A stretch of DNA of 64,000 nucleotides, from assembly GCA_903916735.1 (NCBI GenBank), contig CAIWXX010000164.1, positions 62,001-126,000 on the forward strand, given 5' to 3'. Below the pieces are notes generated by a model, which saw only the letters and a list, made by a program, of their open reading frames with translations, searched no databases and had not been told where the DNA came from. This document shows positions 43,294 to 60,148 of this stretch, piece after piece. The translations under genes were made by a program, and so were the position numbers. The first letter of the stretch is position 1. The number at the start of each line of letters is the position of its first letter. The stretch is from an uncultured Acidobacteriota bacterium. GTDB taxonomy: Bacteria > Acidobacteriota > CAIWXX01.

Positions 43294-44529
43294 CTAATAA
43301 GATATGCGTGCCTCCGTCGAATCGGGGAGCACGCGAGTGATGAGAATTGAAGCGCGACCGGAGGGAACGTCCTCTGGAAGGCGCACGGGAATATAGTTTT
43401 CGGTGATGGCTTGTACGCCGTCCTCATCTCTTGCTTTCAAGACGACCGCGTCGAGGACTCTGCCCATAAACCGGCTGCGGAAAGCATAATTGAGCTCTCT
43501 TGAGACTCCTCTCAGATGCTTCGACCGCTCTGAGATGATATGCCCTGGGAGTGCGTCCGGTCGGCTGGCTGCCGGCGTACCAGGGCGCGGGGAGAAGGGA
43601 AACACATGGACATATGCGAATTGAAGCTCCTTCATCAAATTCACGCTCTCCTCGAATTCCGCATCCGTTTCACCGGGATATCCGACGATGATGTCGGTGC
43701 CGAACGCGATATCAGGCCGCTGACTGCACAATCGGTCGAACGTCCTCCGAATGTGAGCCATGTCGTGCCGGCGATTCATCCTTTGAGCGACTGTTGCCGA
43801 ACCTGTTTGCAAGGGGATATGGAGATGCGGCCGAATGAAAGCCGTGTCGCAAAGAAGATCGGCAAGTCTGGAATTCAAATGCCATGGCTCGATGGAGCTC
43901 AGTCGCAGAGGCGGACAGTTTCCAGCGACCTGTGCCAGCAGATCATACAAGGTCGTCTGAGGTGAGAGGTCCGAGCCGTAGGAGCCGAGGAGAACTCCCG
44001 TTAAGATAATCTCAGGGTGACAATTCCAGAGATTGATTCTCGCGATGACATCATCAGGCGGCATTGATCGGAGTTGATGCCCCCGCACATAAGGGATAAT
44101 GCAAAACGAGCACGCCATGTCACAGCCGTCCTGAATTTTGAGTATTGGGCGTGTTCGGCTGACGGTAGGATCGGACTGCGTCGTGAACGGTTTGGACGTG
44201 AGCGTCTCGGCGATCGTCGGTTTGGAAATGTTGCAGAATACACCAGTGACACCCGGCAGACCGGCGAAGCCGCTGCCGTCTCTCTCGACGCAACAGCCGG
44301 CAAGGTGGATACGGCGCGATGGCTTCTCAGCAGTGATTTTGGCCACCAGCCGGCGGACACGACGTTCGGCGCTCAACGTCACTGCGCACGTGTTGATGAT
44401 GACATCAGTTGCCCTGTCGAGATCCGCTGTGACATGCCCTCCGCGTCGGCGCAGATTCTCTTCGATTTCGATTCCTTCGGCCTGGTTGACCTTGCAGCCG
44501 AGGTTGAGAACGATGAAGGCAGGGTCCAC
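43294..44529 (-). CDS. mtaB: tRNA t6A37 methylthiotransferase MtaB
   Basis: Radical SAM methylthiotransferase making ms2t6A at tRNA position 37. N-terminal auxiliary-cluster cysteines appear in LNLGCKVNQAEG, INTCAVT and AGCCVE; the radical cluster is CDMACSFCIIPYVRG. RMNRRHD, GTDIIVGYPGETD and the C-terminal TRAM-like strand DAVVLKARDE fit. The GCKVNQ form rather than GCQMN separates MtaB from MiaB and RimO. The start is GTG. Six bases after purE in a purD-purE-mtaB run. 411 residues. Confidence 0.93.
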   Translation of the reverse strand: MDPAFIVLNLGCKVNQAEGIEIEENLRRRGGHVTADLDRATDVIINTCAVTLSAERRVRRLVAKITAEKPSRRIHLAGCCVERDGSGFAGLPGVTGVFCNISKPTIAETLTSKPFTTQSDPTVSRTRPILKIQDGCDMACSFCIIPYVRGHQLRSMPPDDVIARINLWNCHPEIILTGVLLGSYGSDLSPQTTLYDLLAQVAGNCPPLRLSSIEPWHLNSRLADLLCDTAFIRPHLHIPLQTGSATVAQRMNRRHDMAHIRRTFDRLCSQRPDIAFGTDIIVGYPGETDAEFEESVNLMKELQFAYVHVFPFSPRPGTPAASRPDALPGHIISERSKHLRGVSRELNYAFRSRFMGRVLDAVVLKARDEDGVQAITENYIPVRLPEDVPSGRASILITRVLPDSTEARISY

Positions 44530-44534
44530 GAATG

Positions 44535-45059
44535 CTACTTGGGCGAGTTGGCTGTGGCTTGCTGAGGCAGAGATGCCTTCAGCTTCTCCGATTTCGCAAC
44601 AACTTCTTCTGCCATCTGTGTTCGGCGCTCGGCCAGCTTTTCGGCGAGAGCCTCATCGGTGACAGCCAGTATTTCGGCGGCTAGAATCGCGGCGTTTGTA
44701 GCGCCTGCTTTCCCGATGGCCATGCATGCCACAGGAATGCCGGCCGGCATCTGCACCGTAGAATAAAGCGCGTCCATTCCATGGAGAGCGGTGGCATCGA
44801 GCGGAACCCCAATGACAGGGAGGGTCGTATGCGATGCGATGACTCCCGCGAGATGTGCCGCGGCGCCGGCCCCCACGATGATGACTCCGATCCCGCGCCG
44901 CCGCGCCTCCAGGGTCCACTCACGCACGCGGTCAGGAGTCCGATGTGCCGACATGACCTCGACCTCATACGTCATGCCGAAACGCTCCAGTACATCAATC
45001 CCCGCCAGCATGACCGGGGCATCCGAATCGCTTCCCATGATGATGGCTACTTTCTTCAT
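44535..45059 (-). CDS. purE: 5-(carboxyamino)imidazole ribonucleotide mutase PurE
   Basis: Purine biosynthesis. Moves the carboxyl group of N5-CAIR to give CAIR. Motifs: IIMGSDSDAPVM, MSAHRTPDRVREW, IIVGAGAAAHLAGVIAS and GVPLDATALHGMDALYSTVQ. The ATG at 45059 has GGAGGGG before it; the ORF extends to 45071 through the ribosome site. No purK is next to it, so its partner enzyme lies elsewhere. The C-terminal tail is a coiled coil (EKLAERRTQMAEEVVAKSEK). Confidence 0.95.
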   Translation of the reverse strand: MKKVAIIMGSDSDAPVMLAGIDVLERFGMTYEVEVMSAHRTPDRVREWTLEARRRGIGVIIVGAGAAAHLAGVIASHTTLPVIGVPLDATALHGMDALYSTVQMPAGIPVACMAIGKAGATNAAILAAEILAVTDEALAEKLAERRTQMAEEVVAKSEKLKASLPQQATANSPK

Positions 45060-45148
45060 AAACCCCTCCAATGGCGGCTATCGATAAAGGACATTCAACA
45101 TTTGTCTCGTGATGAGCGAATTCCGCTGCACTGATGATTGAGTCCGAT

Positions 45149-46420
45149 TCACGGCTCTGATGGCTTCATAACGGCGATGTCACGTCGGAACTGCATGCCG
45201 TCAAATGATATCTTTTCGATAGCATCATATACAATCCGACGTGCCGCATCATATGTCAGACCGGTTGCGCATACTGATAATACGCGGCCTCCACTTGTGA
45301 CAATTTCTCCTTCGCGACACGCCGTCCCGGCGTGAAAAATGATGGCATCTTTCGGAAGCGGGCTCTCCAACCCGTTCACCCTTTTGCCGGTGTTTGGGTG
45401 TTCCGGATATCCGCCGCTCGCGAGTACGACACAAACCGCCTTCGTGTCACTTTGGACGGGCAATGATGGTTTTTCACCTCGTGCCGCTGTGAGCAGAGCT
45501 TCGCCGAAACCATCGCCCATGTTAAGAACAAGTGGTTGAGTTTCAGGATCGCCGAACCGGCAGTTGTACTCGATAACCTTCGGCCCATCCCGGGTCATCA
45601 TGAGCCCGGCGTAGAGCAGCCCGCAAAATTCGCTCTCCTCGCTCCGAAGCCCATCAAGAGTCGGTTGAATGATTGTCTCCATAATATGAACAGCCAATGC
45701 GCCTGTCATGAGGGGACTTGGGGTTATGGATCCCATCCCACCGGTGTTGGGGCCGCGGTCGCCGTCCAGAAGCCTCTTGTAATCCTGCGCCGATCCGATG
45801 CCAACGGCGCCGGTTCCATATGCGAGTGCGAAGAACGAGATCTCAGTGCCCTGGAGGCATTCTTCGACGATAATGCGTTTCCCGGATTTCCCAAACTTCT
45901 CCTGGACCATCATGCTGGTCACAGCCGATGTTGCCTCATGCTGATTCCCGGCGATAACAACACCTTTGCCGGCTGCCAAGCCGTCTGCTTTCACGACAAG
46001 CGGATATTCGAAATCCGGGGAAGTGAGGAACCGGCAGGCATCTTCCGGTGAATCAAATTCGAAGTAATGAGCCGTGGGTATGCCATATTTCTGCATCAGC
46101 CGCTTGGCGAAAATCTTGCTGCCTTCGACCCTGGCCGCTGAGGCTGAAGGGCCGAAAACTGGGATGCGACGATTGCGCATTTCGTCCGCCAGGCCCAGGG
46201 TCAGCGGTACCTCCGGTCCGATGAGGACCAGATCGAATTTCCGCGACTCGGCCAGGGCCATGAGTCCCGTGGCGTCGGAATCCCTGATGGAATAACATTC
46301 CCCTAGAGACCGCATCCCGCCATTTCCTGGTGCCGACGAAACCGTCCACCCATCGCGAGCCAGCTTCCACGCCAGAGCATGTTCGCGTGCTCCTGATCCA
46401 ATAACAAGTGCTTTCTTCAT
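45149..46420 (-). CDS. purD: phosphoribosylamine-glycine ligase (GAR synthetase)
   Basis: ATP-grasp enzyme of purine synthesis. Begins MKKALVIGSGAREHALAWKL, the PurD signature, with ATP-grasp motifs YPLVVKADGLAAGKGVVIAG, GPNTGGMGSITPSP and VIEYNCRFGDPETQPLV. The 423 residues are normal. It starts the purD-purE-mtaB run on the minus strand. Confidence 0.97.
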   Translation of the reverse strand: MKKALVIGSGAREHALAWKLARDGWTVSSAPGNGGMRSLGECYSIRDSDATGLMALAESRKFDLVLIGPEVPLTLGLADEMRNRRIPVFGPSASAARVEGSKIFAKRLMQKYGIPTAHYFEFDSPEDACRFLTSPDFEYPLVVKADGLAAGKGVVIAGNQHEATSAVTSMMVQEKFGKSGKRIIVEECLQGTEISFFALAYGTGAVGIGSAQDYKRLLDGDRGPNTGGMGSITPSPLMTGALAVHIMETIIQPTLDGLRSEESEFCGLLYAGLMMTRDGPKVIEYNCRFGDPETQPLVLNMGDGFGEALLTAARGEKPSLPVQSDTKAVCVVLASGGYPEHPNTGKRVNGLESPLPKDAIIFHAGTACREGEIVTSGGRVLSVCATGLTYDAARRIVYDAIEKISFDGMQFRRDIAVMKPSEP

Positions 46421-46636
46421 AGAGCGGAATTATAGACCGGTTGATCAAAACGTGAAAGCAGGCAGATGATACCATCATCCTGGAGCAGATGAATTGTTTC
46501 TGAGATATTTATCTTCTTGCAATGGCAGGGGGGAAGAGGAGTAGAGATGCGAAGGAGCCTGTTCACCTTGGTTCCCTCGCAGCAGCCAATGGATCACTTG
46601 ACAAGATATTCGATCAACTTATTAGATGTCGCGAGA

Positions 46637-47914
46637 TCAGAGCGATGCTCGGAAGAAAAGAAAATAGACCATAAAGAATAAGGGAAAGAGAATGGGCAGG
46701 GAATATCGCAGGATGTAGCCGAAGAAACTCGGGCAATGCACATGTGCCTGTTCTGCTATGGATTTCACCATAAAGTTCGGGCCGTTGCCGATATAGGTCA
46801 TCGCTCCGAAGAAGACGGCTCCCATAGATATCGCGATGACATAGGCCGGATGAGACGATAGAAAGAGAGCCATATGTTGAGAATTATCGACGACAAGGTT
46901 GTATTGACCGAAGGCCGCTGAAAGGAAAGCCAGATAGGTTGGCGCATTATCGAGGACGCTCGAAAGCGCCCCAGTCACCCAATAGTAGTGGCTCGGGAGT
47001 GTCAGCCCAATGTGGGCTCCGTTGAGCTCCAGCCAGTCGAGTGCCGGGATCATTGTAGCGAAAATACCGGCAAAGAGAATCGCAACTTCTTTTATGGGAA
47101 TGAAGTTAAAATCGTTACTTCGATGAATGTCATCACGCGTCGTGTAGTAAGAGGCCACCGAGGCCAGGATCATGACGGCTTCGCGTAGAAAGAAAGGAGT
47201 CTCAATGAAAACGGCTGCCAGAATCACCGCGAGGAAGACAAGGTTGTGCATGCCGGAAAAATCAAAGTCCTCCCTGCTCCTCCGCGTTCGGTTCCGGATC
47301 TCGTGCGGTTGATGAGAAAATTGCCATCGATCGATGAGATAAAAGACAGCAAGAACCACTGCGTTTGAAACGGCCCAGATATGCCATCCACGCTTAATGA
47401 CCCAGAGGAATGGAACGCCTTTTAAATAGCCCAAGAAAAGCGGAGGATCACCAATCGGCGTGAGCGCACCACCCATATTGCTGACAATGAATATGAAAAA
47501 CACAATGTGATATGCGGAGATGCGCGCTCGGTTGGCGCGAATGAACGGCCGTATGAGAATCATGGAGGCACCGGTCGTCCCGAGAAGGTTCGAAAGGATC
47601 GCGCCGAGGCCGAGGGTCAGGACATTTTCATAGGGTTTTGCAATGCCCTTGATTCGGATGTGGATTCCGCCGGATACAACGAAGAGCGATCCGATCAGAA
47701 CAATGAAACTGATGTATTCGTGACATGTGAGCAGAAGCCGTGGAGTATTTCTAATGACGAATACATAATAAAAGCCGGTCACCAGCCCCAGCGCGGCGGC
47801 AATGGCGGGATAGTATTTCTCCCAAAAATGCCGGCTGATGAATGGCACAATGGCAATGCTGCTGAGCATTAAGACGAACGGCGTCATCATCCATGGATTA
47901 ACCGGCAGTATCAT
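46637..47914 (-). CDS. sodium:proton antiporter, NhaD type
   Basis: Inner-membrane ion transporter of the ion-transporter superfamily, closest in pattern to NhaD: GATGASMILIRPFI-type motif (SNLLGTTGASMILIRPFIR), SNMGGALTPIGDPPLFLGYL, and ALSSVLDNAPTYLAFLSAAF near the C-terminus with GAMTYIGNGPNFMVKSI. About 11-12 hydrophobic segments in 425 residues. It is 48 bases downstream of an unknown gene on the same strand, so it may be cotranscribed with it. Na+/H+ exchange is inferred from family; the ion is not proven by sequence. Confidence 0.85.
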   Translation of the reverse strand: MILPVNPWMMTPFVLMLSSIAIVPFISRHFWEKYYPAIAAALGLVTGFYYVFVIRNTPRLLLTCHEYISFIVLIGSLFVVSGGIHIRIKGIAKPYENVLTLGLGAILSNLLGTTGASMILIRPFIRANRARISAYHIVFFIFIVSNMGGALTPIGDPPLFLGYLKGVPFLWVIKRGWHIWAVSNAVVLAVFYLIDRWQFSHQPHEIRNRTRRSREDFDFSGMHNLVFLAVILAAVFIETPFFLREAVMILASVASYYTTRDDIHRSNDFNFIPIKEVAILFAGIFATMIPALDWLELNGAHIGLTLPSHYYWVTGALSSVLDNAPTYLAFLSAAFGQYNLVVDNSQHMALFLSSHPAYVIAISMGAVFFGAMTYIGNGPNFMVKSIAEQAHVHCPSFFGYILRYSLPILFPLFFMVYFLFFRASL

Positions 47915-47962
47915 GGCCGTCGGATGTTATCGAAACCCCACCGAAAGTTCAAAAGTAATCGC

Positions 47963-49117
47963 CTACGTGAGGAGCCGGTCGAGCTCCGATTGCCATCCGG
48001 CAGTGTGGATGATCCGCCCAGCGAATCTTTTACGGAGAACCTCAACCGATGGATTCTTTCGTTCGATTGCGTCAATCTGGATTCCATATTTTTCTTGAAG
48101 CGTATCAGCTTTTTCGTAAACCGGCTCTCGCCTGAAATTGATGGAATCGAAGGCTCGTGCGATGTGCATCACGAAGACCCGCTCAAATCGCATCGCCGGG
48201 TACAAAGCCGCAACTTCCCCCCAACGAAAAAGGTAGGTGGCATAATCTTCCTTGTTAAGAACCTCCACGATGAGCCAATCACCGGCGCGAATCATGAGAT
48301 ATATTACCGTATTCGCAATCAACTCCTCATCGTCTGGAATGCCGTGCGTGTCGGTAGCTTCGGCCAGCCCGGCATTAAGTTCGTTGGCACAAAGCCATGC
48401 CGTACCATGGGAGGCTAGATATAACCCCTCCTTTCGCCTCAGCATGCAGGGATGCCGTAAGAATTCGGTCACATTTCCCTGACCCGTCATCGGGATACCT
48501 GGGAGAATGGCGTTCTTCACGTTGAGAAGCGATCGCAGCCGATCTGAGCGAGCTCGATGGTTATCCATCGCCGTCGCCCATAGAGTCCTGAATTCATCGG
48601 TCAGCATTGCCAGCTTGCGGATGTTGATGTTTGTTCCCTCAATGAGCCGCAGATTCACCGTCCACGTTTCCCGATCGAATTCCTCCGCTTGAATATAGGA
48701 CAGTGGAATGTGGAATGGCGGCGCCGTATTGGGATAAAACATGAGTGAGGTCGGATAGATTTCGATTTCGGCTGATTGTGGTTCACCCTCGATGGCAAAG
48801 CTGCATGGAAACGGTTTGGATGGATTGGAGTCATGCTGGAAGAGGCCCGAAAGCAGCCGACGACGCCGTTCGGTTTTCAGTTCTTCACAAAACATCTCGA
48901 TATCCCGGCCAAGCCATTCGATGACAAGCAGTTCTTGGGGATACAGGCGGAGCCCGATCTTGACATCTTCACAGGCAACAGCATCCACATTAAGCAGATC
49001 GATCATACGGTCGATGCCGGTGGCGTTCATGTGAAGAAGGCCCGCATTGAAGGAAATGCCGGCGGCAGTAGGGTTGGCTTCACCATTCGAGACTCGGCAT
49101 GTGTAAGTTCGTCCCAT
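47963..49117 (-). CDS. hypothetical protein, possible tandem PH-like domains
   Basis: A 384-residue soluble protein with no signal peptide or membrane helices that I do not recognise. Two stretches look alike in outline: residues ~15-75 (NAGLLHMNATGIDRMIDLLN) and ~115-185 (EIYPTSLMFYPNTAPPFHI then a W/Y-rich strand and a C-terminal helix DEFRTLWATAMDNH), each strand-rich with a final helix, as in PH-like folds. The rest (about 200-384) is mixed helix and strand. It lies 205 bases after the zinc-ribbon gene and 48 before the antiporter on one strand. Confidence 0.75.
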   Translation of the reverse strand: MGRTYTCRVSNGEANPTAAGISFNAGLLHMNATGIDRMIDLLNVDAVACEDVKIGLRLYPQELLVIEWLGRDIEMFCEELKTERRRRLLSGLFQHDSNPSKPFPCSFAIEGEPQSAEIEIYPTSLMFYPNTAPPFHIPLSYIQAEEFDRETWTVNLRLIEGTNINIRKLAMLTDEFRTLWATAMDNHRARSDRLRSLLNVKNAILPGIPMTGQGNVTEFLRHPCMLRRKEGLYLASHGTAWLCANELNAGLAEATDTHGIPDDEELIANTVIYLMIRAGDWLIVEVLNKEDYATYLFRWGEVAALYPAMRFERVFVMHIARAFDSINFRREPVYEKADTLQEKYGIQIDAIERKNPSVEVLRKRFAGRIIHTAGWQSELDRLLT

Positions 49118-49322
49118 CGACTCAACCTAATCTTGTAGATGGTGCATGATCAGGAGCGTGTTTTTTAAGTCATGCGGGATTGGTCGGCAGTCAGGTGCCT
49201 TGGGCGGAGAAGGAATTGTCTGGGATGCCGGGCCCCTGATTCCCTGGTCTCTGAATCGTTGATGATCCGGCACGGCGATGGCCGGAGCTTGAATCCTTTT
49301 CTTTACCTTCTCCATGAAATGA

Positions 49323-49958
49323 TCATTTGATGAGGCGATCGCCACACTCGGGGCAGAACTTCGATGTCGATGAGGCATCGGCGCCGCATTTCTCACAGGT
49401 GATAACCACCTTCAAGGGTAAGCCGCACTCGGGGCAGAATTTCCCGCCCTCCGCTCTGGCGCCGCAGCTGGGGCATGTCACAGTGCCTGGCGTCTTCATG
49501 TCGATCTTGTCGACATAGTTCGTCTGACGTGCCTTTTCGTGAATTTGTTCTTTGGTGGCCTGAGCCTGAGCGGCGGCGATCTCTTCCTGCGTATCAGGGG
49601 CGCAGTCCTCGCACAAGCCCTTGCTCTTGTTCCAGCAGACCTCGGGACAGACCCATTTCCCGCAGCGTGAGCACTGCATGAAATGGCCTTTCGCTTCCTC
49701 GACCGCCTTACGGAAGGCTTCATCATGCGCCTTCCCCCCGATTGCTCGCTGCATGTCATAAGTCGAGTTACCAATTCGTCCCAGAACCCCGCCAAAAAGG
49801 TTGCCTGCGGCGCGCAAAACATCAGATGCCGTTCCGACAGCGGACATCTGGAACTGTGTCATAAAGCCGTTGCCGCATTTGTCACAACGAAATGTAAACT
49901 GATATCCACGATCGGTCGACAGATCATCATAGTTATGTGTGAATTGGATCAACGCCAT
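49323..49958 (-). CDS. multi-zinc-ribbon protein
   Basis: A 211-residue cytoplasmic protein with four pairs or more of zinc-binding cysteines: CDKC, CSRC, CPEVC, CEDC, CPSC, CPEC, CEKC and CPEC. The C-terminal half has two classic zinc ribbons (TCPSCGARAEGGKFCPECG and CEKCGADASSTSKFCPECG). The N-terminal half starts YQFTFRCDKCGNGFMTQ, an atypical ribbon, followed by a helix. RBS GGAGGT, nine bases before the ATG. Its role is unknown; similar proteins sit beside SPFH-domain or bacterial PH-domain genes, and an unknown protein with possible PH-like segments follows it. Confidence 0.85.
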   Translation of the reverse strand: MALIQFTHNYDDLSTDRGYQFTFRCDKCGNGFMTQFQMSAVGTASDVLRAAGNLFGGVLGRIGNSTYDMQRAIGGKAHDEAFRKAVEEAKGHFMQCSRCGKWVCPEVCWNKSKGLCEDCAPDTQEEIAAAQAQATKEQIHEKARQTNYVDKIDMKTPGTVTCPSCGARAEGGKFCPECGLPLKVVITCEKCGADASSTSKFCPECGDRLIK

Positions 49959-50153
49959 ACTCTTTTACCTCCAGACATCCCTGATCATAATGCGCCTCAT
50001 TTGATGCGTCAACGGATGCCGCCTCATCGTCGGCATCCGGTACCTCATCGATCTGGCTGAAGGCACCATTTATTATTTTTGGACTTCACTCTTGATCAAA
50101 AGCCTCTGTTCCAATAATATGCGTGGGTCCAATTGGACGAGGGAGATTCTGTC

Positions 50154-52079
50154 ATGCTTGACGTCATGCGGCGAAATATAAAATCGCTCGCCTTTACACT
50201 CTGGATCGTCATCGGATCGTTCATCTTTTTCATTTTCGTGCAGTGGGGAATGGGTCGTGCTGAACGAGCGACCGGCAAGTCCGTTATTGCTTCCATCAAC
50301 AATGAACCGATCTATGCCGATACCTATCAGGAAACCTTTCAGGCTCAACTTCGCCGTATGAAGGACATGTTCCAGCAGCGAATGGATCGCCAGATGATTC
50401 AACAGCTCGGGCTGGAGTCATCTGTTATTGAGTCGCTCATTGCTGAAGAGCTCCTGGTGCAAGAGGCGGAGCGGCTTGGGCTCGTGGTCTCCGATTCCGA
50501 TGTGCGGGATGCCATACTGAACAACCCGAATCTGCAGCAAAACGGTCGTTTCATCGGAAAGGAGCAATATGAACGGCTTCTCATGATGAACAAAAAGACT
50601 CCGGCCCAGTTCGAGTCTGAACTCCGGCGAGAGTTGCTCATCAGCAAGCTCCGCCAGCTGGTGACTCTGCCGTTGACGGTCTCTGATGCTGAAGTCCGCA
50701 CATCTTATTATGAGACCAGCGAGAAGGTGAAGATCGCCTTCATGATGATCAAGAGCGTTCCGGATCTGTACCCGGGACTGATCGATGCCGAAGTGCGATC
50801 CTATTTCGAAAAAAACCATCCCCGATTTGATATTCCGGAGCGACGCAAAGGCCGCTATATCCTGCTCGAAGTTGATCGCATTCGCCAGAAGGTTAACCTG
50901 ACACAGAAGGATATCCAGTCCTATTACAGCGATCATATCGAGCAATTCCGGACTGAGGAACAGATCGACGCGCAGAAGATTGTCGTCAAGTGGGAGAATC
51001 GAACCAAGGAGGAGGCCAAAGCTCTTGCAACGGCGCTTCTCGGACGTGCGCGTAAAGGCGAGGACTTTGGCAAGCTTGCTCGGGAGAATTCCGAGGATCC
51101 TCTATCGGCCGCAAACGGAGGGGAAACCGGCCCTCTCACCAAGGGCGGGCTGTCTGAGGCAGAGGAAGCGGTTTTAATTAATCAACCCGAAGGATCCATA
51201 AACGAACCTATCGAAACCGATACAGCCTGGGTGATTTACAAGATCAATAAAAAGACCCCGGCTTCAGAGCGTTCGTTGCAGGAAGCCGAGCCGCAGATCC
51301 GAACAATACTTTCCTGGCAGAAAGCTCGGCAGGCGACGGATAAGAAAATTACCGAAATCCTTCATGCTGCTCAAGAGGCCAAGAGCCTTGATAAGGTAGC
51401 GCAAACCAATAGCCTCACAGTCAAGGATTCCCCTCTCCTCGCAAAGGGAGATGAAGTTCCCGGGCTCGGCGATGCCGGACAGTTCAGTCAGGCTCTCTTT
51501 GGCATCAAGAAGGGAGAAATCGATGGCCCGTTGCACGCTGGAAATGGGGCGATCGTTTATTCAGTCACGGATATCGAAGCACCTCGTCCGGCGAAATTCG
51601 AAGAAGTCGCCGATAAGGTCCGAAAGGCACTCTCGGGTGAGAAACGCCGCGAAGAGGCCATCGCCAAAGCCCAGCAGGCACTGGCCGAGATCCAGGCCGG
51701 TGCGAAGACTGAAGATGTTGCCAAGAAGATGAGCGCCGCCGTAAAGGAGCAGGAGTTCGCTCGGAATTCCTATATCGAGGAAGTCGGCAACAGCTCATAT
51801 TTGGATGACAGAGCTTTTGGAATGGAACCCGGCTCCACATGGACGGGCCCGGTTTCGGTCAAGAACGGAGCGTGTATCTTCCGCGTCGTAGAGAAAAAGC
51901 CTGTGGCCGATGCGGATTTCGAGAATAAAAGGGAATCCACTCGGGAAAGCCTCCTGCAGGACAAAAGAAACAGATTCTTCGATTCCTATCTGCAGCTGCT
52001 GCGCAAGAAGAACCGCGTCACGGTTAATACTGAGGCTCTTGGCGAGGTGAACGATATGCTCCTGAGCCGTTTCTCATAG
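50154..52079 (+). CDS. ppiD: PpiD/SurA-type periplasmic peptidyl-prolyl isomerase
   Basis: Membrane-anchored periplasmic folding factor. An N-terminal membrane helix (SLAFTLWIVIGSFIFFIFV), a SurA-N-like helical domain (ESLIAEELLVQEAERLGLVV), then parvulin domain (ARKGEDFGKLARENSEDPLS, ANGGETGPLTKGGLSEAEE) and helical C-terminal region. 641 residues. The ATG at 50154 follows GGGAGA; the frame begins at 50133. It is divergent from the zinc-ribbon gene and convergent with the ATP-grasp cluster. Confidence 0.9.
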   Translation: MLDVMRRNIKSLAFTLWIVIGSFIFFIFVQWGMGRAERATGKSVIASINNEPIYADTYQETFQAQLRRMKDMFQQRMDRQMIQQLGLESSVIESLIAEELLVQEAERLGLVVSDSDVRDAILNNPNLQQNGRFIGKEQYERLLMMNKKTPAQFESELRRELLISKLRQLVTLPLTVSDAEVRTSYYETSEKVKIAFMMIKSVPDLYPGLIDAEVRSYFEKNHPRFDIPERRKGRYILLEVDRIRQKVNLTQKDIQSYYSDHIEQFRTEEQIDAQKIVVKWENRTKEEAKALATALLGRARKGEDFGKLARENSEDPLSAANGGETGPLTKGGLSEAEEAVLINQPEGSINEPIETDTAWVIYKINKKTPASERSLQEAEPQIRTILSWQKARQATDKKITEILHAAQEAKSLDKVAQTNSLTVKDSPLLAKGDEVPGLGDAGQFSQALFGIKKGEIDGPLHAGNGAIVYSVTDIEAPRPAKFEEVADKVRKALSGEKRREEAIAKAQQALAEIQAGAKTEDVAKKMSAAVKEQEFARNSYIEEVGNSSYLDDRAFGMEPGSTWTGPVSVKNGACIFRVVEKKPVADADFENKRESTRESLLQDKRNRFFDSYLQLLRKKNRVTVNTEALGEVNDMLLSRFS

Positions 52080-52175: not shown

Positions 52176-53504
52176 TTATCGGCGGCGGCGAGCAATACGC
52201 AGCTTCCGTGTTTCGATAATTGGAAGCCTGGTATGTTCGGCTAACGGATTAAAAAAAGAAGATTTGGATAGCCTTGCCCAGCCTCCGGCCACCCGTGTGT
52301 CGAAGATACCGATGAGCAGGGAATATCCGAAAGAGTCGATCTGCACCTCATCACGCCAGACTGGAAAATCTTCGACCGGCAATAGGACTCGGGTCTGGAG
52401 CAGCCACTTTCCCCCAAGAGCACGATCGATGGCCGCCTCCCATTGAGCCTGGTCGCATTGCTGTCCCACAAACACCTCCTGCCCGTTCATGGACGTGAGG
52501 CAGAGAAGATGGCGGTTGTGACGAGCAAACCGAGGCAGATCGATTTTGCTGCCCTGATAATAGGTTGTGGCTTCTTCCATGACCCGCGACCAGGGGATGT
52601 GCTTTCTGATGAAAAGGCGCTCTCTGGGGGTGAACAACTCGCGATATCGTTCATGGGTGAGTACATCGAAGATGGCCTTTGACTCGGAGAGCTTCTGTTT
52701 GAAAGGATTGATGAGACAAACCGCATTTTGCTGGACGGCTTCGATAAGAGAAGCAGCATCACCCATATTTGATTCTGTGAGTGGGGCCAGCCGGTAGGCG
52801 ATGTCCACGGCAGATCCGTGTGCCATGAGCCGGCTGTCGTGGAACAGAAGATCGCGGGGATCACAGACAAGTGTTGTTAATCCGGCGCTGTTGAGATGAC
52901 CGTGTATCATGCTGGCTTCAATGGAAATCCCGGCACTCATATCGAGGATGAGTGCGATCGTGGGCGTTTGACTCCGGCCACCCCACCTGGCATATCTGGA
53001 AAGAAACAGCTCATGGATAAGTTCATAAAAAGGCGGGACTTTCATCTGATAGTGTCGTGTGAATTCCCGGCTCGTAGGATTGGAGGATCGGAGTCGCGCC
53101 ATTTCAAAGGCGTTCGCGATATCAGGCAAGCCGTCGGCTATGATGTCAACAATATGCAATCCGTGTCGGGTGAGTGATGTTTCAATTTGTGGAAATACGG
53201 AAAATCCGGAATTTCCATGATCGATTCGTGCCAGTTTTCGCTCTTCGATCGTCAGCCCAAGCCGCTCCAGAAGGGGATCATTGCTAAGTGCCGCTGCACA
53301 GATCTCTTCGATGCATTTGACAAGTAGGCGACCAGCGTGCCTCAGAGTGCGAATCTGATCGAGTGACCCGAAATAGGGCCGCAGGATGACCTCACAATGA
53401 TGCTCCTGCCGTCTTTCCTTTTCAGCCAGCAGCCGCTCAGCCATCTGCCGAGCTCCATCGGGATCACGGCTGAGAATCGTGTGGAAAAGGCCCTTCTCTT
53501 TCAT
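52176..53504 (-). CDS. degenerate circularly permuted ATP-grasp-like protein (paralogue)
   Basis: A 442-residue protein clearly related to the gene two positions upstream (55675-57036). Shared segments include the N-terminal ILRPYFGSLDQIRTLRHAGR, IALILD.., TLVCDPRDLLFHD beside VIICDPRHLELRK, and IPWSRV beside IPWTRK. Where the active paralogue has LVLKPNDDSEESG and YVVQQRI, this one has LCLTSMNGQ and WLLQTRV, so the ATP-binding lysine and the loop are gone. It is probably a non-catalytic partner. The ATG at 53504 overlaps the stop of the TPR-thioredoxin gene (TGATG); a GTG at 53546 would add 14 residues. Confidence 0.75.
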   Translation of the reverse strand: MKEKGLFHTILSRDPDGARQMAERLLAEKERRQEHHCEVILRPYFGSLDQIRTLRHAGRLLVKCIEEICAAALSNDPLLERLGLTIEERKLARIDHGNSGFSVFPQIETSLTRHGLHIVDIIADGLPDIANAFEMARLRSSNPTSREFTRHYQMKVPPFYELIHELFLSRYARWGGRSQTPTIALILDMSAGISIEASMIHGHLNSAGLTTLVCDPRDLLFHDSRLMAHGSAVDIAYRLAPLTESNMGDAASLIEAVQQNAVCLINPFKQKLSESKAIFDVLTHERYRELFTPRERLFIRKHIPWSRVMEEATTYYQGSKIDLPRFARHNRHLLCLTSMNGQEVFVGQQCDQAQWEAAIDRALGGKWLLQTRVLLPVEDFPVWRDEVQIDSFGYSLLIGIFDTRVAGGWARLSKSSFFNPLAEHTRLPIIETRKLRIARRRR

Positions 53505-55591
53505 CAAGGCAGATTTTTCTCTCCCCTTGCCGCGTCGACCAGCCACTCCATGACCTGCATATAATCGTAATCGCTGTTGAAGCCTGTCATTTCAAATCGG
53601 ATTATCCCGGCCGAGTCAATGATGCAAGTATAGGGTATCCCATCGATCCCGAAGTGCTCCCACGGGTTTTGATCGACCAGCATCGGAAATGTGTAATCCT
53701 TGTCCTTTAGAAACTGCTTGATTGCCGGCAGAGGATCCTGAGCATTGACGGCCCACATCGCAAGCCCGGGGTCGATCGAGTGCTTCGTATAAAATTTCTG
53801 GAATTCAGGCAACTCTTCCTGACAGGGTCCGCACCACGAAGCCCAGAGAATAAGCACGGTGATTTTTCCGGAAAAGCTCTTTGAAGAAACCTTGCGTTCG
53901 GAGCCGTAAGTAGAGAGATCAAATTCCGGAAGGGGTCCTTTGTGAGAGGCATGAGTTTCCAGGATCTCTTTCTGGAGTGTATCAACAGAGGACTTCTTTA
54001 GCGCTGTGATATATCCTGACCAATCCTTCTCAGATCCATTCTTTGCGATGTACATCTTTTTAAGGGCGTCTTCAGATGCAGGTTTGAAGAAGCCGAGTCT
54101 GTAGGCTGAACTCAGATACCGCTCGGCTGTTGCCCAGTCCTTTTCTTCGATGGCGATGAGGCCGAGTTTTGTCTGCACAGAGGTGTCACCGGCATCAGCT
54201 TTCACAAGTGCCTCTAGCAGCGGCTTTGCCTGTGCGAAGTTTTTCGTTTCGTAGTAGGCGGTGGCAAGAACCAGATCCTCATCATGAGTATATGCCTCAA
54301 CAATGTTGCCGGGTATCTGGCCTTCCGCGGCCCTTTTTGAGACGAGGGTTTTTATTTCCTGGACCAGCTCGATAGCCCTCTTATAATTCTTGTTCTCCAC
54401 GTAAGCACGCGCCAGACTCAGAGGTTCCGTTGTGAGACAGTCGGGTTGTTCGGATGCTAGATGCTGCAAGGCCGAATCCCATTTTTCAAGAGCTGCATTG
54501 AATTTGGCCTGGTCTGCCCGAACGGCCCGTGCCATCATCGAATAAAGAGATGCTAGGTACCGTGGCTCCTTGGTCTCTTGCAGTGCCGGACGAATCACAG
54601 CTTCGGCCTCGGCTGATCGCCCCTCCTTCAATAGTTGCATCGCCTGACGTATCGCCATCTCGGTCTTCGACATTGCCGCCTGTTGTGAATCTGGGAACTT
54701 CTTCAGAAGCTCATCGCTGTAACAACGCGCTTTTTCTTCTTCCTGCCTGATCATCGCGATTCGAAACGCTCTCATCAAGGATCGCAAATCCCGTTCCTTC
54801 TTATTGAGGATCTCTTCAACCTCAGTCCACATCTGCTCGGGTGTGAGAGGCAGGTTCCACCTCATCTGGAACAATCCCAACTTGAGATCCATCATCCGGA
54901 GGGATGCGGGCTCCAATTTTTCGGCCTGGCGGATGGTTTCAAATGCGGCACTGAATTTCGTCTGGGACATCTGAATGGATGCGATCTCCAGGAGTGGCTC
55001 TATCCAGCCGGGATTCATTTGCGAAGCCGATTGAAAAGCCGCCAATGCTTTCTCGGAATTTTCATTCGAGTTGTTTTCGCCGATGTGGGCCGAACCGAGT
55101 CCATACAGGATGATATCGCTCTGGGGAAATTGCGCTGAGCACAAGCGCAACCATTCGACAGCCTGAGATGGATCTGCCTCGCTGAGAAAGTAGCCTTTGA
55201 GCACGTCTAGTGGGACATTAGTAGGATATTGCTTGAGACCATTTTCGATTTCGACCAGAGCGGCATTGGCATCGGTTTCTCCAAGTCGCTCGGCCCGCAA
55301 GACATAAAAGCACGCTTTATCTCCAAATCGCTTTTCGAGTCCTGCGATTTTCGTATCACGTTCCTGGCCCTTGAGACTATCATCAACAGCGAACACATAC
55401 TCTTCGATGAGAGCATCCGTTGGCTCCACTGCGCTGATCAACGGCATGAGCAAGGCTTCGGCTTCCTTTGCCTTCCCATTCATCCGGAGCAACCGTGCCC
55501 GCTGAACGGTGCTGGTCGTTACTTCTGCATCAACCGAAAGGCATATGAACCCCATGAAAAAGATCACCCACGCCTGCCGCAAAATTCTCAT
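53504..55591 (-). CDS. exported TPR protein with C-terminal TlpA-like thioredoxin domain
   Basis: A 695-residue protein with a signal peptide (ILRQAWVIFFMGFICLSVDA). Residues ~25-540 are TPR-like helix pairs (ARLLRMNGKAKEAEALLMPL, AFETIRQAEKLEPAS, ERYLSSAYRLGFFKPA). The last ~150 are a thioredoxin fold of the TlpA/AhpC type with an intact redox motif WCGPC (Cys587, Cys590), then FPMLVDQNPWEHFGIDGIPY with the cis-proline. It probably works in the periplasm or on the outer side of the membrane, as a thiol reductant or scaffold. GAGGAGG lies seven bases before the ATG at 55591. It lies between two related ATP-grasp-like genes. Confidence 0.88.
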   Translation of the reverse strand: MRILRQAWVIFFMGFICLSVDAEVTTSTVQRARLLRMNGKAKEAEALLMPLISAVEPTDALIEEYVFAVDDSLKGQERDTKIAGLEKRFGDKACFYVLRAERLGETDANAALVEIENGLKQYPTNVPLDVLKGYFLSEADPSQAVEWLRLCSAQFPQSDIILYGLGSAHIGENNSNENSEKALAAFQSASQMNPGWIEPLLEIASIQMSQTKFSAAFETIRQAEKLEPASLRMMDLKLGLFQMRWNLPLTPEQMWTEVEEILNKKERDLRSLMRAFRIAMIRQEEEKARCYSDELLKKFPDSQQAAMSKTEMAIRQAMQLLKEGRSAEAEAVIRPALQETKEPRYLASLYSMMARAVRADQAKFNAALEKWDSALQHLASEQPDCLTTEPLSLARAYVENKNYKRAIELVQEIKTLVSKRAAEGQIPGNIVEAYTHDEDLVLATAYYETKNFAQAKPLLEALVKADAGDTSVQTKLGLIAIEEKDWATAERYLSSAYRLGFFKPASEDALKKMYIAKNGSEKDWSGYITALKKSSVDTLQKEILETHASHKGPLPEFDLSTYGSERKVSSKSFSGKITVLILWASWCGPCQEELPEFQKFYTKHSIDPGLAMWAVNAQDPLPAIKQFLKDKDYTFPMLVDQNPWEHFGIDGIPYTCIIDSAGIIRFEMTGFNSDYDYMQVMEWLVDAARGEKNLP

Positions 55592-55674
55592 GTTGTATCC
55601 TCCTCGATGCATGGTCACAATCAATGGCCCCGATTCGCGTTATGAGATCGATGAGAACTGGAAACAGGATCGAT

Positions 55675-57036
55675 CTAGCCTTCAATAATAAAGGTCGGCA
55701 CCTGAGCCCCGCCATGTGCTATATCGAAGAAGGACGACGCTGAAAGACGGGCCTGAATGCCTCCGACGCTTTTTCCGGCGAACACGTACGAGCCCGTGTC
55801 GACGAGCATATCTTTAAGCCGGAGATTATCACGTGTATCGGGGAATAGCTCTCTGCGGACATCGATCCTTTGTTGGACCACGTAGTCGCCTTCCATTGCC
55901 TTGCGGATTTGCAGGTTCCACTCATCCTGTTCCGTTTCCCATCCGATCGCGATACCGGATTCCTCGCTATCGTCATTCGGCTTTAAAACAAGTTTCCGTC
56001 GATTGCCTTCGATGTAAGCGAGCAGCTCGATTTCCTTGCCATTCAGTATGACGCGGCGATCGGTCACTTTCCTGGTCCAGGGGATATATTCAAGCACGGC
56101 TTGCTTGATGGCGGGCGACATGGCTGCCTGTATCTGATCCTCATAAAGCGCGGCAAAGACAGCTTTTTTGTGAAGGATCATCGTCCGGAACGAATTGACG
56201 ATGCAAACTTTCCCCGCCTTGCCGGCCTCGGCCATCGGAAGACAATCCTTCAGGCGCGCCTGCATCTCGTGAAGACGTAGTGCCCGGTACACGAGATCGA
56301 TGCGGAAGTCGCGATAGTAAAGCTTGCCTTTTCGGAGCTCCAAATGGCGTGGATCGCAGATGATCACCTTGAAGCCATGGCTTTGGATTGAATCCTTAAT
56401 GAGCTCGAGTTCGGAGCGGGTTTGAGAATCTTCCCATGAAATGATCGCGATCTGAGGCTTATTTTTCCCACCCCACTGCTTGTAAGATGCAATCAGCGTA
56501 TGGACAAGCGATGGTTGGCTTGCCACAAAACGCACTTTCCGGGTTTTCCGGAACTGCTTGAACAGTGGAAGATGGGAAAAGGCCTCGGCCATTGCATCGT
56601 CATATCCTATGCCGCTTGGGAATTCAGCGTTGAAATCGATAAACTTAAAAGAGGCCGGCGTGAAAAACGAATCCAGCCGGGCCATGGCAGAAGCCGCTTT
56701 GAAGCCTGGATCAAATCGTATGAGCTGTTTCTCGATGTCGTTCAGACCGAGCCAGTCAAGCCACTTGCTGTCGGAGAGGGCTTTTTCCACGACCAGATCG
56801 AATGCCGGTCGCATGAGCTTAACGACGGCTCGGATCTGTTCATATTCCGGGCGCGATAGAAAGAAGGGACGCAGAAACGGGCAGATGAGGCGATCCCCGG
56901 AAGCAAGACCGCGCTGCCGCATTTCGTCGTGCAACCGGGCAACACCCTCAATGGCGGCGCTCCGGTCCCTGGCAATGAGAGCGTGATAGTCCTTGATTGC
57001 AAGCTGCACGGGTGAAATATCGAGATCGATCGGCAT
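55675..57036 (-). CDS. circularly permuted-type ATP-grasp protein
   Basis: A 453-residue protein. The C-terminal half carries ATP-grasp-like motifs: LVLKPNDDSEESGIAIG (ATP-binding Lys352), DYVVQQRIDVRRELFP, and near the end GSYVFAGKSVGGIQARLSAS. The N-terminal part (ICPFLRPFFLSRPEYEQIRA, FIDFNAEFPSG) precedes a Rossmann-like segment (IAIISW.., VIICDPRHLELR). This order resembles the circularly permuted ATP-grasp proteins related to glutathionylspermidine synthase. Such enzymes form amide bonds through an acyl phosphate. The ATG at 57036 is eleven bases after the previous gene. The paralogue at 52,176 lacks the key lysine. Confidence 0.72.
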   Translation of the reverse strand: MPIDLDISPVQLAIKDYHALIARDRSAAIEGVARLHDEMRQRGLASGDRLICPFLRPFFLSRPEYEQIRAVVKLMRPAFDLVVEKALSDSKWLDWLGLNDIEKQLIRFDPGFKAASAMARLDSFFTPASFKFIDFNAEFPSGIGYDDAMAEAFSHLPLFKQFRKTRKVRFVASQPSLVHTLIASYKQWGGKNKPQIAIISWEDSQTRSELELIKDSIQSHGFKVIICDPRHLELRKGKLYYRDFRIDLVYRALRLHEMQARLKDCLPMAEAGKAGKVCIVNSFRTMILHKKAVFAALYEDQIQAAMSPAIKQAVLEYIPWTRKVTDRRVILNGKEIELLAYIEGNRRKLVLKPNDDSEESGIAIGWETEQDEWNLQIRKAMEGDYVVQQRIDVRRELFPDTRDNLRLKDMLVDTGSYVFAGKSVGGIQARLSASSFFDIAHGGAQVPTFIIEG

Positions 57037-57047
57037 GGATGTTGTGC

Positions 57048-57989
57048 TCAATCGCGGGCCATCTCGCCGCTCAGGAACCGGCCCCATCGCAATTCTCTGG
57101 ATCGGGGCTTGCCGTGGAGGGCATAATCAATCGCCATATCGGCCATCAATTCTACGATCTGTTCAAAATAAAAGGGTGTGATACTTTCTGGATCGAATTC
57201 AGGCACGGGATTCGTGAAATCAACAACGTAGGGGGTGCCGTCGACGATCGCGAAGTCGACGGTGTTGATCTCATAGCCGAGCGCTTCGTTGATAGTCCGG
57301 GCGTCGTGGATGACCCGCGCCCCGGTTTCCGCTGACAAGTGCTGGTGATCAACGTGATAGTGGCGGTTGTGCGGATCGTATTTAACCGGGATGATATTGT
57401 CCTTCCCGATGCAAAAACACCGGATGAAGTGCTCATAGTCGATCTTCTTTTGCAGCATCATGCATTGCTGACCTGTCTGGTCGTAACAATGCCAGAGCTC
57501 ATCCATATTCGAAACTATTGAAAAGTCATCTGGTGTGATTGTTGCCGAAATTGGTCTCAAAATGGCTGGAAATCCAACGTAATCGGCAAGTTGCCACCAA
57601 TCGATGGGATACTTCAGGTTGCGGAGCGATTCGGATGTGATACGCTGGGGGTAGTCCTTGGATGGAATCACGGCCGATCGAGGGACGGTCAAACCAAGGT
57701 GATGCGCGAGCGAAAATCCAAAAAATCGGTCGTCTGCTGAGGCCCAGAATGGATTGTTGATGACGATCGACCCCTGAAGCACAGCCCATTTCAAATAAGC
57801 GCGGTAATAGGGAATATCCAGAGGACTGCGGTCGATGATGACCGCGTATTCAGATGGATCCTCGGCCTTCGTCCCGCCCAGAAGTACAGTTTCAGCACGG
57901 ATTTCGCCGACGGCTTTCCCGTTGATGCGGTCAACAAATGCTGCCGGGAAACTGCGCTCCCGGCCATACAGGATCCCGATTTTCTTCAC
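57048..57989 (-). CDS. RimK-like ATP-grasp protein
   Basis: A 313-residue soluble enzyme. After an N-terminal domain (MKKIGILYGRERSFPAAFVD) come ATP-grasp features: GFPAILRPISATITPDD in the position of the Lys-containing strand but with Arg in place of Lys, CMMLQKKIDYEHFIRCFCIG, and NTVDFAIVDGTPYVVDFTNP, where the metal ligands usually written ExN appear as D-x-T followed by Asn. It resembles a group of uncharacterised ATP-grasp proteins rather than RimK itself. It is the first gene of the minus-strand cluster, eleven bases before the permuted ATP-grasp gene. Substrate unknown. Confidence 0.78.
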   Translation of the reverse strand: MKKIGILYGRERSFPAAFVDRINGKAVGEIRAETVLLGGTKAEDPSEYAVIIDRSPLDIPYYRAYLKWAVLQGSIVINNPFWASADDRFFGFSLAHHLGLTVPRSAVIPSKDYPQRITSESLRNLKYPIDWWQLADYVGFPAILRPISATITPDDFSIVSNMDELWHCYDQTGQQCMMLQKKIDYEHFIRCFCIGKDNIIPVKYDPHNRHYHVDHQHLSAETGARVIHDARTINEALGYEINTVDFAIVDGTPYVVDFTNPVPEFDPESITPFYFEQIVELMADMAIDYALHGKPRSRELRWGRFLSGEMARD

Positions 57990-58501
57990 GTGCCTGGAAT
58001 TCCCCTGTTCCTGTCATTACGGCGAATGTTTAGTATATCTCAATTCACCCGGTGCGACAATATCGTGTTATGGAAAAAGCAGGATGGCATCAAAACCAAG
58101 CCGGTGCCTCATCAGGAAATTTTAGATTGGCGAATTCTAAGTAAAAAGCAAAAAGTAAAAATGAAAACCTCAATCAACACGTTTCCAGAAATTATTGCTT
58201 TTTGCTTTTCATTTTTTACTTCGCAAAATCAGCGCATGATTGCCGACTTCGACGTGGCCTTGATGGGGAAAGACGGGTTGTCGATCATAGCGGTCATTCT
58301 AATGTGCATTCGTGGAATGTTGGAAATGGATATTCTGTGGCGATTTTATTCTGTGTGTCACCTGACTGGCGATGACAATGTATCAACTGCCAAGCAATTC
58401 GAGTGCCCGACTCATTAGAAGCTTGCGATAATCAGCAAGGCAGTGCTAAATTCAATATGAGGCTGGGGATTTCCCCTATCCCATTTTGTTGAGTGAAACA
58501 G
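57990..58501. other. 512-bp divergent intergenic region with AT-rich inverted repeat
   Basis: Lies between the ATP-grasp cluster (minus) and nadE (plus). AAGTAAAAATGAAAA at 58153-58167 is the inverse of TTTTCATTTTTTACTT at 58206-58221, with one base of slippage. The wider arms (58141-58168 and 58197-58224) also share AAAAAGC-type runs. An open frame across this region (57990-58418) is judged accidental. The region must contain both promoters. Confidence 0.55.
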
Positions 58502-60148
58502 ATGAAGATTGCAATTGCACAGATCAACACGACGATCGGAGATTTCTATGGCAATGCCGAAAAAATCCTGGCCTATGCACGAAAGGCGAAGCGGCGGAGA
58601 TGCGATTTGGCCATTTTCCCGGAACTTGCCATCTGCGGATATCCACCGCGCGATCTCGTCGATCGGGAGCATTTTACAGAATCAAACCTGGTCGCCCTGG
58701 ATTCTGTCGCCCGGCGGCTCCCCTCAAATTTAGCCGCGATGGTCGGATTCATCGATCACAATAGCTCAACCACCGGAAAGCCACTCTACAATGCTGTGGC
58801 TGTTCTGCGTGATGGGAATCGTGTCTCGACTCACTATAAGTCTCTCCTTCCAACATATGATGTCTTTGATGAAGGTCGGTATTTTGAACCTGCCGACCGG
58901 GTGACACCGGTGATACTCAACGGTTTGAAACTGGGCGTTACGATCTGCGAAGACATCTGGAACGATAAGCATCTCTGGCGGAAACGCCTCTATCATCAGG
59001 ATCCGATCGAAAAAATCGCTCGGGAAAATATCGACCTTCTTATCAATATTTCGGCTTCTCCATTTTCAGAGAAGAAACAGGAGCTCCGCGAACAGATCCT
59101 CAAGGAGATTGCGACCGAACTGAAAGTTCCGGTTGTCTATGCGAACCTGGTCGGAGGCAACGACAGCCTCATTTTCGATGGGGCGAGTTTTGTTATTGGC
59201 AGCGATGGCAAGAAGCTCGCCCAGGCCTTCGACTTTGAAGAGGATCTGATCGTGTTTTCAGTTGAAACAGGCGTAGGCGATTTTCGGCCGATTTGTGCTG
59301 AGCCGATTGAATCCATCTACAAGGCTCTCGTGCTCGGCACCCTCGATTATTGCCGCAAGTGCGGATTCAAAAGCGCGATTGTTGGACTTTCAGGCGGCAT
59401 CGATTCGGCTCTGGTTGCTTGCATCGCCGCCGAGGCCCTTGGTCCCCGCAACGTTCTGGGCGTCACCATGCCATCGCCTTTTTCATCGAAGGGGAGTACC
59501 GAGGATTCCGAGAAGCTGGCCAGGAATCTCGGCATCGGCTTCGATACCGTACCCATCAGTCCAATCTATCGGACCTATCTGCGGTGCCTCGCTCCAATCA
59601 TGAAAAAACGACAGGCGGATGTGACTGAGGAAAACCTGCAAGCCCGAATCCGCGGCACAATCCTCATGGCCATCTCCAACAAGTTCGGTCACCTGGTTCT
59701 CAGTACCGGGAATAAATCCGAATTGGCCGTCGGCTACTGCACGCTCTACGGCGACATGTGCGGCGGCCTTGCGGTTATCTCAGATGTTCCCAAGCTGATG
59801 GTCTACCAGTTGGCGAATTACATCAATCGAGAGCGCGAGATTATTCCATCGCCTATTTTTTCCAAAGCGCCATCCGCTGAGCTTCGTCCCAATCAGAAAG
59901 ATGAAGACAGCCTGCCGCCGTACCGGCTGCTTGATCCCATAATCAGGATGTATGTCGAAGAGAACCTGCGACGGTCGCAGATTGCCGTCCAGGGATTTGA
60001 TCCGAAGCTTGTCGATAAGGTTGTCCGGCTCATCCATGTAAATGAATATAAGCGCCAACAGGCGGCGCCGGGGCTGAGGGTGACATCCCGAGCCTTCGGC
60101 TTTGGACGCCGTTGCCCGATCGCTGAAAAATTCCGAGGCGGCGCTTGA
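58502..60148 (+). CDS. nadE: glutamine-dependent NAD+ synthetase
   Basis: Last step of NAD synthesis. N-terminal amidase of the nitrilase fold: MKIAIAQINTTIGDFYGNAE, FPELAICGYPPRDL, YKSLLPTYDVFDEGRYF and the catalytic cysteine in TICEDIWND. C-terminal synthetase: IVGLSGGIDSALVACIAAEA, LSTGNKSELAVGYCTLYGDM. 548 residues. The ATG at 58502 begins the conserved first strand; GTG 58493 is three codons upstream. A GC-rich hairpin (CCCCCCT 60168-60174 / AGGGGGG 60202-60208) follows the gene. Confidence 0.96.
   Translation: MKIAIAQINTTIGDFYGNAEKILAYARKAKRRRCDLAIFPELAICGYPPRDLVDREHFTESNLVALDSVARRLPSNLAAMVGFIDHNSSTTGKPLYNAVAVLRDGNRVSTHYKSLLPTYDVFDEGRYFEPADRVTPVILNGLKLGVTICEDIWNDKHLWRKRLYHQDPIEKIARENIDLLINISASPFSEKKQELREQILKEIATELKVPVVYANLVGGNDSLIFDGASFVIGSDGKKLAQAFDFEEDLIVFSVETGVGDFRPICAEPIESIYKALVLGTLDYCRKCGFKSAIVGLSGGIDSALVACIAAEALGPRNVLGVTMPSPFSSKGSTEDSEKLARNLGIGFDTVPISPIYRTYLRCLAPIMKKRQADVTEENLQARIRGTILMAISNKFGHLVLSTGNKSELAVGYCTLYGDMCGGLAVISDVPKLMVYQLANYINREREIIPSPIFSKAPSAELRPNQKDEDSLPPYRLLDPIIRMYVEENLRRSQIAVQGFDPKLVDKVVRLIHVNEYKRQQAAPGLRVTSRAFGFGRRCPIAEKFRGGA

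Follow-up and report, generated by a model that had tools for sequence, protein, structure and literature searches.

Three ATP-grasp proteins without their glycine-rich loop in an acidobacterial operon with a predicted exported TPR-thioredoxin

Results

A compact operon of ATP-grasp and TPR-thioredoxin genes

The window, that is, the whole 64-kb stretch of DNA that was analysed, belongs to the genome assembly of an uncultured Acidobacteriota bacterium (5.37 Mb in 183 contigs, 98.7% complete). The ORF listing of the window revealed four closely spaced ORFs, all on the minus strand and transcribed in the order P0001, P0002, P0003 and P0004 (Table 1). Taking the likely ATG starts, one obtains spacings of 11, 83 and about -1 bases between them, and P0002 and P0004 have the lengths of 453 and 442 residues that were originally assigned to them, so that the prediction of four tightly packed genes on one strand holds. 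The operon is flanked by two plus-strand genes, named from their sequences as NAD synthase and PpiD-like. No match to a defence system was obtained with PADLOC. Elsewhere in the window, a run of minus-strand genes (positions 43294-49958) includes a gene for a zinc-ribbon protein (49323-49958); in G001, the sister genome, members of these families likewise adjoin the PpiD gene (clusters c8-c12).

Table 1. Genes and sites of the operon, in coordinates of the window
Feature	Position	Strand	Description
NAD synthase gene	58493-60148	+	operon flank
P0001	57048-57989	-	RimK-like ATP-grasp protein, 313 aa; frame intact, glycine-rich loop lost
P0001 loop site	57537-57545	-	residues 149-151, A-T-I, at the GGG position of nearly all relatives
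P0002	55675-57087	-	circularly permuted ATP-grasp protein, glutathione-synthetase/GspS fold (modelled); likely ATG at codon 18 (453 aa)
P0002 loop site	55957-55968	-	residues 374-377, S-E-E-S, replacing Y-G-G-x of the ATP G-loop
P0002/P0003 junction	55592-55674	-	place where G001 carries a GCS2 (YbdK-type) gene
P0003	53504-55624	-	TPR repeats and C-terminal TlpA/ResA thioredoxin domain; likely ATG at codon 12
P0003 C-G-P-C redox motif	53822-53833	-	C598 and C601; intact, from sequence and alignment with the sister genome
P0004	52176-53546	-	second permuted ATP-grasp paralogue; likely ATG at codon 15 (442 aa); most degraded
P0004 loop site	52482-52502	-	CLTSMNG, replacing LKPNDDYGGKG; three residues shorter
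PpiD-like gene	50133-52079	+	operon flank

Folds of the encoded proteins

AlphaFold models of P0001 (pLDDT 90.4) and P0002 (pLDDT 92.8) were compared with known structures using Foldseek. The P0001 model matched RimK, LysX/ArgX and Ddl (best match RimK, 5zct, E = 2e-14; LysX, 3vpd, TM 0.69). The P0002 model matched human glutathione synthetase, a putative GspS, 3n6x, Cp1B, YgiC/YjfC and E. coli GspS, with E values down to 3e-18 and an identity of 11-16%. YgiC and YjfC are described as peptide-spermidine ligases (Pederick 2023, as cited in PMC12568646). The modelled structures therefore confirmed that P0001 has a RimK/LysX/Ddl-like ATP-grasp fold and P0002 the circularly permuted ATP-grasp fold of glutathione synthetase and GspS, as had been predicted for both. 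P0004 is paralogous to P0002, with which it shares 26.7% identity (E about 1e-44), and should by homology have the same fold, so that an ATP-grasp fold is found in the 453-residue protein by modelling and in the 442-residue protein by relationship.

The proteins lie at the margin of the described families. P0002 matched Pfam CP_ATPgrasp_2 (PF14403) with E = 4.7e-6 and 26.2 bits, under the curated cut-off of 32, and GSP_synth (PF03738) with 14.4 bits, under the cut-off of 29.3; PF14403 was matched by 21 of the 22 permuted-ligase members at E values up to 0.01. P0001 and P0004 gave no significant Pfam match. Against TIGR00768, the RimK family model with a cut-off of 143.4 bits, P0001 scored 17.3 bits, and its relative at locus L046 31.5 bits. 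P0001 thus shares fold and size with RimK, LysX and D-Ala-D-Ala ligase, but it is far under the family cut-off, it has lost the G-loop, and no ribosomal or LysW context was seen. Similarly, P0002 shares with GspS, YgiC, YjfC and eukaryotic glutathione synthetase the fold and an R-x-D ... E/D-x-N motif, and its relatives keep the G-loop; it differs from them in its low identity, its scores under both Pfam cut-offs and the lack of an amidase domain, and neither P0002 nor P0004 has a G-loop.

P0003 gave strong Pfam matches to AhpC-TSA and TPR. Its redoxin domain (PF00578) scored 65.1 bits, above the cut-off of 26, which assigns it to the TlpA/ResA thioredoxins, and the CGPC motif is conserved in the alignment with the G001 counterpart. 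Judged from the sequences, P0003 is the only part of the operon with an intact active-site motif. A signal peptide, MRILRQAWVIFFMGFICLSVDA, was recognised by eye, and P0003 is hence a predicted exported protein. Of the exported TPR/TlpA-type thioredoxin proposed originally, the domains and the CGPC motif are supported by Pfam, and export by a reading by eye. Since the three ligases look cytoplasmic and the thioredoxin is predicted to be exported, direct partnership between them remains putative.

All three ATP-grasp proteins have lost the glycine-rich loop

In the ATP-grasp fold the glycine-rich G-loop closes over the phosphates of ATP, with which contacts are expected, and in eukaryotic glutathione synthetases it is near-invariant (PMC2845819). 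The consensus loops of the aligned relatives are LKP..GGGW for the RimK-like and KPNDxYGGxG for the permuted ligases. Instead of LKP..GGGW, P0001 reads LRPISATITPDDF (LRPISATIT at the GGG site). P0002 has KPNDDSEESG, with two glutamates at the expected phosphate positions, and P0004 has CLTSMNGQEV. The GGG is kept in 90 of 91 RimK relatives, P0001 being the sole exception, and the GG loop in all 89 further RimK-like loci, some of which are the same genes as the 91. Among 72 P0002-type permuted ligases, a set that leaves out the deeper outgroups L052-L056, the G-loop is absent from only two, P0002 and P0004. Their G001 orthologues have intact YGG loops (YGGR in that of P0002). The RimK-like protein of G001 keeps GGGW; it is encoded outside the operon and is possibly not orthologous to P0001.

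Other conserved residues were also analyzed. At invariant positions (at least 95% conserved in the family alignment) P0001 has lost 17 of 71 residues (median of the relatives, 1), P0002 11 of 47 (median, 0) and P0004 21 of 47, the heaviest losses in each family. P0004 lacks the R-x-D and E-x-N metal-site motifs as well as the G-loop; P0002 retains R-x-D and D-x-N, and P0001 the D257/N260 pair. It is probable from these alignments that P0001, P0002 and P0004 no longer activate carboxylates with ATP, although weak or altered nucleotide binding may persist in P0002 and P0001 through the metal-site residues that they keep. The original prediction, in which one ATP-grasp protein was inactivated, is too narrow, since all three are without the glycine-rich loop.

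Compensating frameshifts or sequencing errors were rejected as the origin of the lost loops: the changes are multiple in-frame substitutions, and the other frames restore no glycines. Active paralogues as a substitute were likewise rejected, as no further RimK-like or permuted ligase copy was found elsewhere in the host genome.

The GCS2 gene of the sister operon is absent

The operon of G001 has the order CP ligase - GCS2 - TPR/TlpA - CP2 and lies between NadE and PpiD. Because these flanks are common to G001 and the host genome, the two loci are syntenic. The GCS2 gene (PF04107, 220 bits, above the cut-off) sits exactly between the orthologues of P0002 and P0003, and the G001 orthologue of P0002, at 61% identity, is its nearest relative. 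No GCS2 was found in the host genome, 98.7% complete, and the gene could lie in the 1.3% that the assembly lacks. A search for a GCS2 relict in the P0002/P0003 gap of this genome gave no convincing match, nor did one for a RimK relict in the syntenic gap of G001. Given that the flanks are shared and GCS2 is present at the G001 locus but not here, GCS2 would most simply have been deleted in the lineage of this genome.

A three-ligase core is conserved in several phyla

The RimK-like gene was found in 128 of 396 sampled Acidobacteriota genomes, and the collection scan yielded 582 confirmed stretches of the family, the best 80 of which are from Acidobacteriota, Chloroflexota, Gemmatimonadota, Planctomycetota and Armatimonadota. 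A permuted ligase and/or GCS2 adjoins the RimK-like gene on the same strand in 58 of these 80 named loci, and all three ligases occur together in at least 29 (Acidobacteriota, Chloroflexota and Gemmatimonadota); these neighbour counts are conservative, long overlapping ORFs having been missed. The P0003-type thioredoxin and the second permuted ligase were observed only in this genome and G001, the two genomes by which the class is sampled, and among the genomes searched neither was found outside the class. Conservation of the four-gene order over distant taxa, which would have supported the original prediction, was thus not observed. The conserved core consists of the RimK-like protein, the permuted ATP-grasp protein and GCS2, and by gene content the four-gene order is a class-level elaboration of it.

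Several recurrent neighbours of the core make or break gamma-glutamyl bonds. Those related to this chemistry are GCS2, a CofE-like F420 gamma-glutamyl ligase, a BesA-like glutamate ligase and Peptidase C26 (6 loci), the CofE-type and BesA-like genes each in single loci. In 16 named loci, mostly of Acidobacteriota (e.g., L086:3994-5019 and L066:10567-11589), the ligase genes are followed by one for an M29-family peptidase, a possible product-turnover enzyme. In 23 loci, many of them from Chloroflexota (e.g., L063:2903-3622), a gene for a PF00756 esterase-family protein (enterochelin-esterase-like) lies immediately upstream of that for the RimK-like protein. In L036 (9404-12113), two proteins are encoded downstream of the RimK-like and permuted ligase genes: one of 384 amino acids that lacks a Pfam match, and a PGM1/BesA-like ATP-grasp protein. 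Homologues of the 384-residue protein come after the cluster in L088, L102 and L141 as well. In L046 (1927-8726; genome G073), the RimK-like and permuted-ligase genes are separated by three others, one for a succinate dehydrogenase flavoprotein (named by eye) and two that are smaller. A full-text literature search, outside which Iyer et al. 2009 lies, found no paper describing the three-ligase core; that work is reportedly the main paper on predicted amidoligase operons.

The reading frames are open despite accelerated evolution

The end branches of the tree measure 0.51 for P0002 and 2.11 for P0004, versus 0.17 and 0.42 for their G001 orthologues. From a neutral simulation over the branch excess, about 7.6 stops would be expected in P0002 and 38 in P0004, an approximate expectation since branch lengths are rough under saturation; none was observed. 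If the excess in P0002 were only 40 changes, zero stops would still have a probability of 15%. About 1,240 ligase codons and the 706-codon TPR gene are all open. Furthermore, GC by codon position matches that of the neighbouring genes, and GC3 is gene-like.

Discussion

In our reading the operon descends from a widespread cluster of three ligases: the gamma-glutamyl ligase GCS2, a RimK-like enzyme of the ATP-grasp type and one with the glutathione/glutathionylspermidine-synthetase fold. The intact relatives would start from a gamma-glutamyl amide made by GCS2; the RimK-like enzyme would then lengthen this product, and an amino acid or amine would be added as a cap by the enzyme with the glutathione-synthetase fold. 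The same step logic is that of the reference pathway, GshA, then GshB, then glutathionylspermidine synthetase. The core combines ligase classes comparable by fold with those of that pathway; it differs in that its middle enzyme is RimK-like, and this genome lacks GCS2. By analogy of fold and neighbourhood, the core is most likely a gamma-glutamyl peptide or amine-conjugate pathway. In this class the cluster would then have gained a duplicated permuted ligase and the exported TPR-thioredoxin, and in this genome GCS2 would have been deleted, and the ATP G-loop is gone from all three ATP-grasp proteins. The disarmed ligases would most likely be kept as catalytically dead ligand-binding or scaffold proteins, made alongside a redox-competent exported thioredoxin. 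We think it somewhat probable that this is a retired ligase pathway, whose chemistry is lost and whose proteins are kept by selection as pseudoenzymes.

The pathway could instead have been lost outright, with the operon turning into pseudogenes in which no stop has yet appeared by chance. The loss of GCS2, the three degraded active sites and the extreme divergence of P0001, P0002 and P0004 at otherwise invariant positions would all fit such decay. We nevertheless consider it rather unlikely, because the ligase and TPR frames are open throughout when neutral evolution should have left P0002 with several stops and P0004 with dozens, and because the CGPC motif of the thioredoxin, the overall fold of P0002 and its identity to the sister protein have been kept. 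Open frames despite fast evolution therefore favour retained non-catalytic proteins, and selection rather than decay is the favoured inference from this one genome, whose nearest relative is 61% identical at P0002.

An improbable alternative is that the proteins are still ligases, an unusual branch whose nucleotide site has been remodelled, or which uses a different phosphoryl donor, to make a new amide. The folds are intact, some metal-site residues are kept in P0002 and P0001, and glutathione-synthetase folds can change substrate, as in the nematode GS-like effectors (PMC5919673); those effectors, however, kept the catalytic arginine and the ATP pocket. Here the phosphate loop is lost from three proteins at once, P0002 has two glutamates at the expected phosphate place, and there is no GCS2 to carry out its step. 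Least probable of all, and in our estimate very improbable, is the active, envelope-linked amide-forming system of four genes that was originally predicted. The operon, the ATP-grasp folds, the exported thioredoxin, and the intact active sites and amide-ligase neighbours of the relatives speak for it; the loss of all three ligase loops, the absence of GCS2 and the restriction of the four-gene order to this class among the genomes searched speak against it. Descent from a taxonomically broad amide-forming cluster is thus retained from that proposal, whereas amide-forming activity here is not, and the idea that this cluster builds or attaches a small molecule is contradicted in this genome.

If the ligases have indeed been retired, their likeliest present roles are binding or sensing of the ancestral metabolite, or scaffolding. 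That the whole ligase operon has become a set of three ATP-grasp pseudoenzymes which, together with an exported TPR-thioredoxin, have taken on a new role outside catalysis, such as binding or sensing of the ancestral small molecule, is a tentative proposal to which we give less than an even chance. A precedent is TTLL12, an ATP-grasp-fold member of the TTL family that has been discussed as a pseudoenzyme (PMC3520985) and is likewise conserved without the ligase activity of its family; TTLL12 is a single eukaryotic protein, whereas here three operon-mates are disarmed together.

The main point of this locus is that one and the same catalytic element is gone from three ligases whose genes are still open; it is not a new active system. 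If the retired-pathway reading is true, the operon would be an example from nature of a pathway that persists after losing its chemistry, and it cautions against inferring amide synthesis from fold alone. Its intact relatives form a widespread three-ligase cluster, and since their enzyme classes parallel those of glutathione and glutathionylspermidine synthesis, bacteria of several phyla may contain a new gamma-glutamyl metabolite of low molecular weight.
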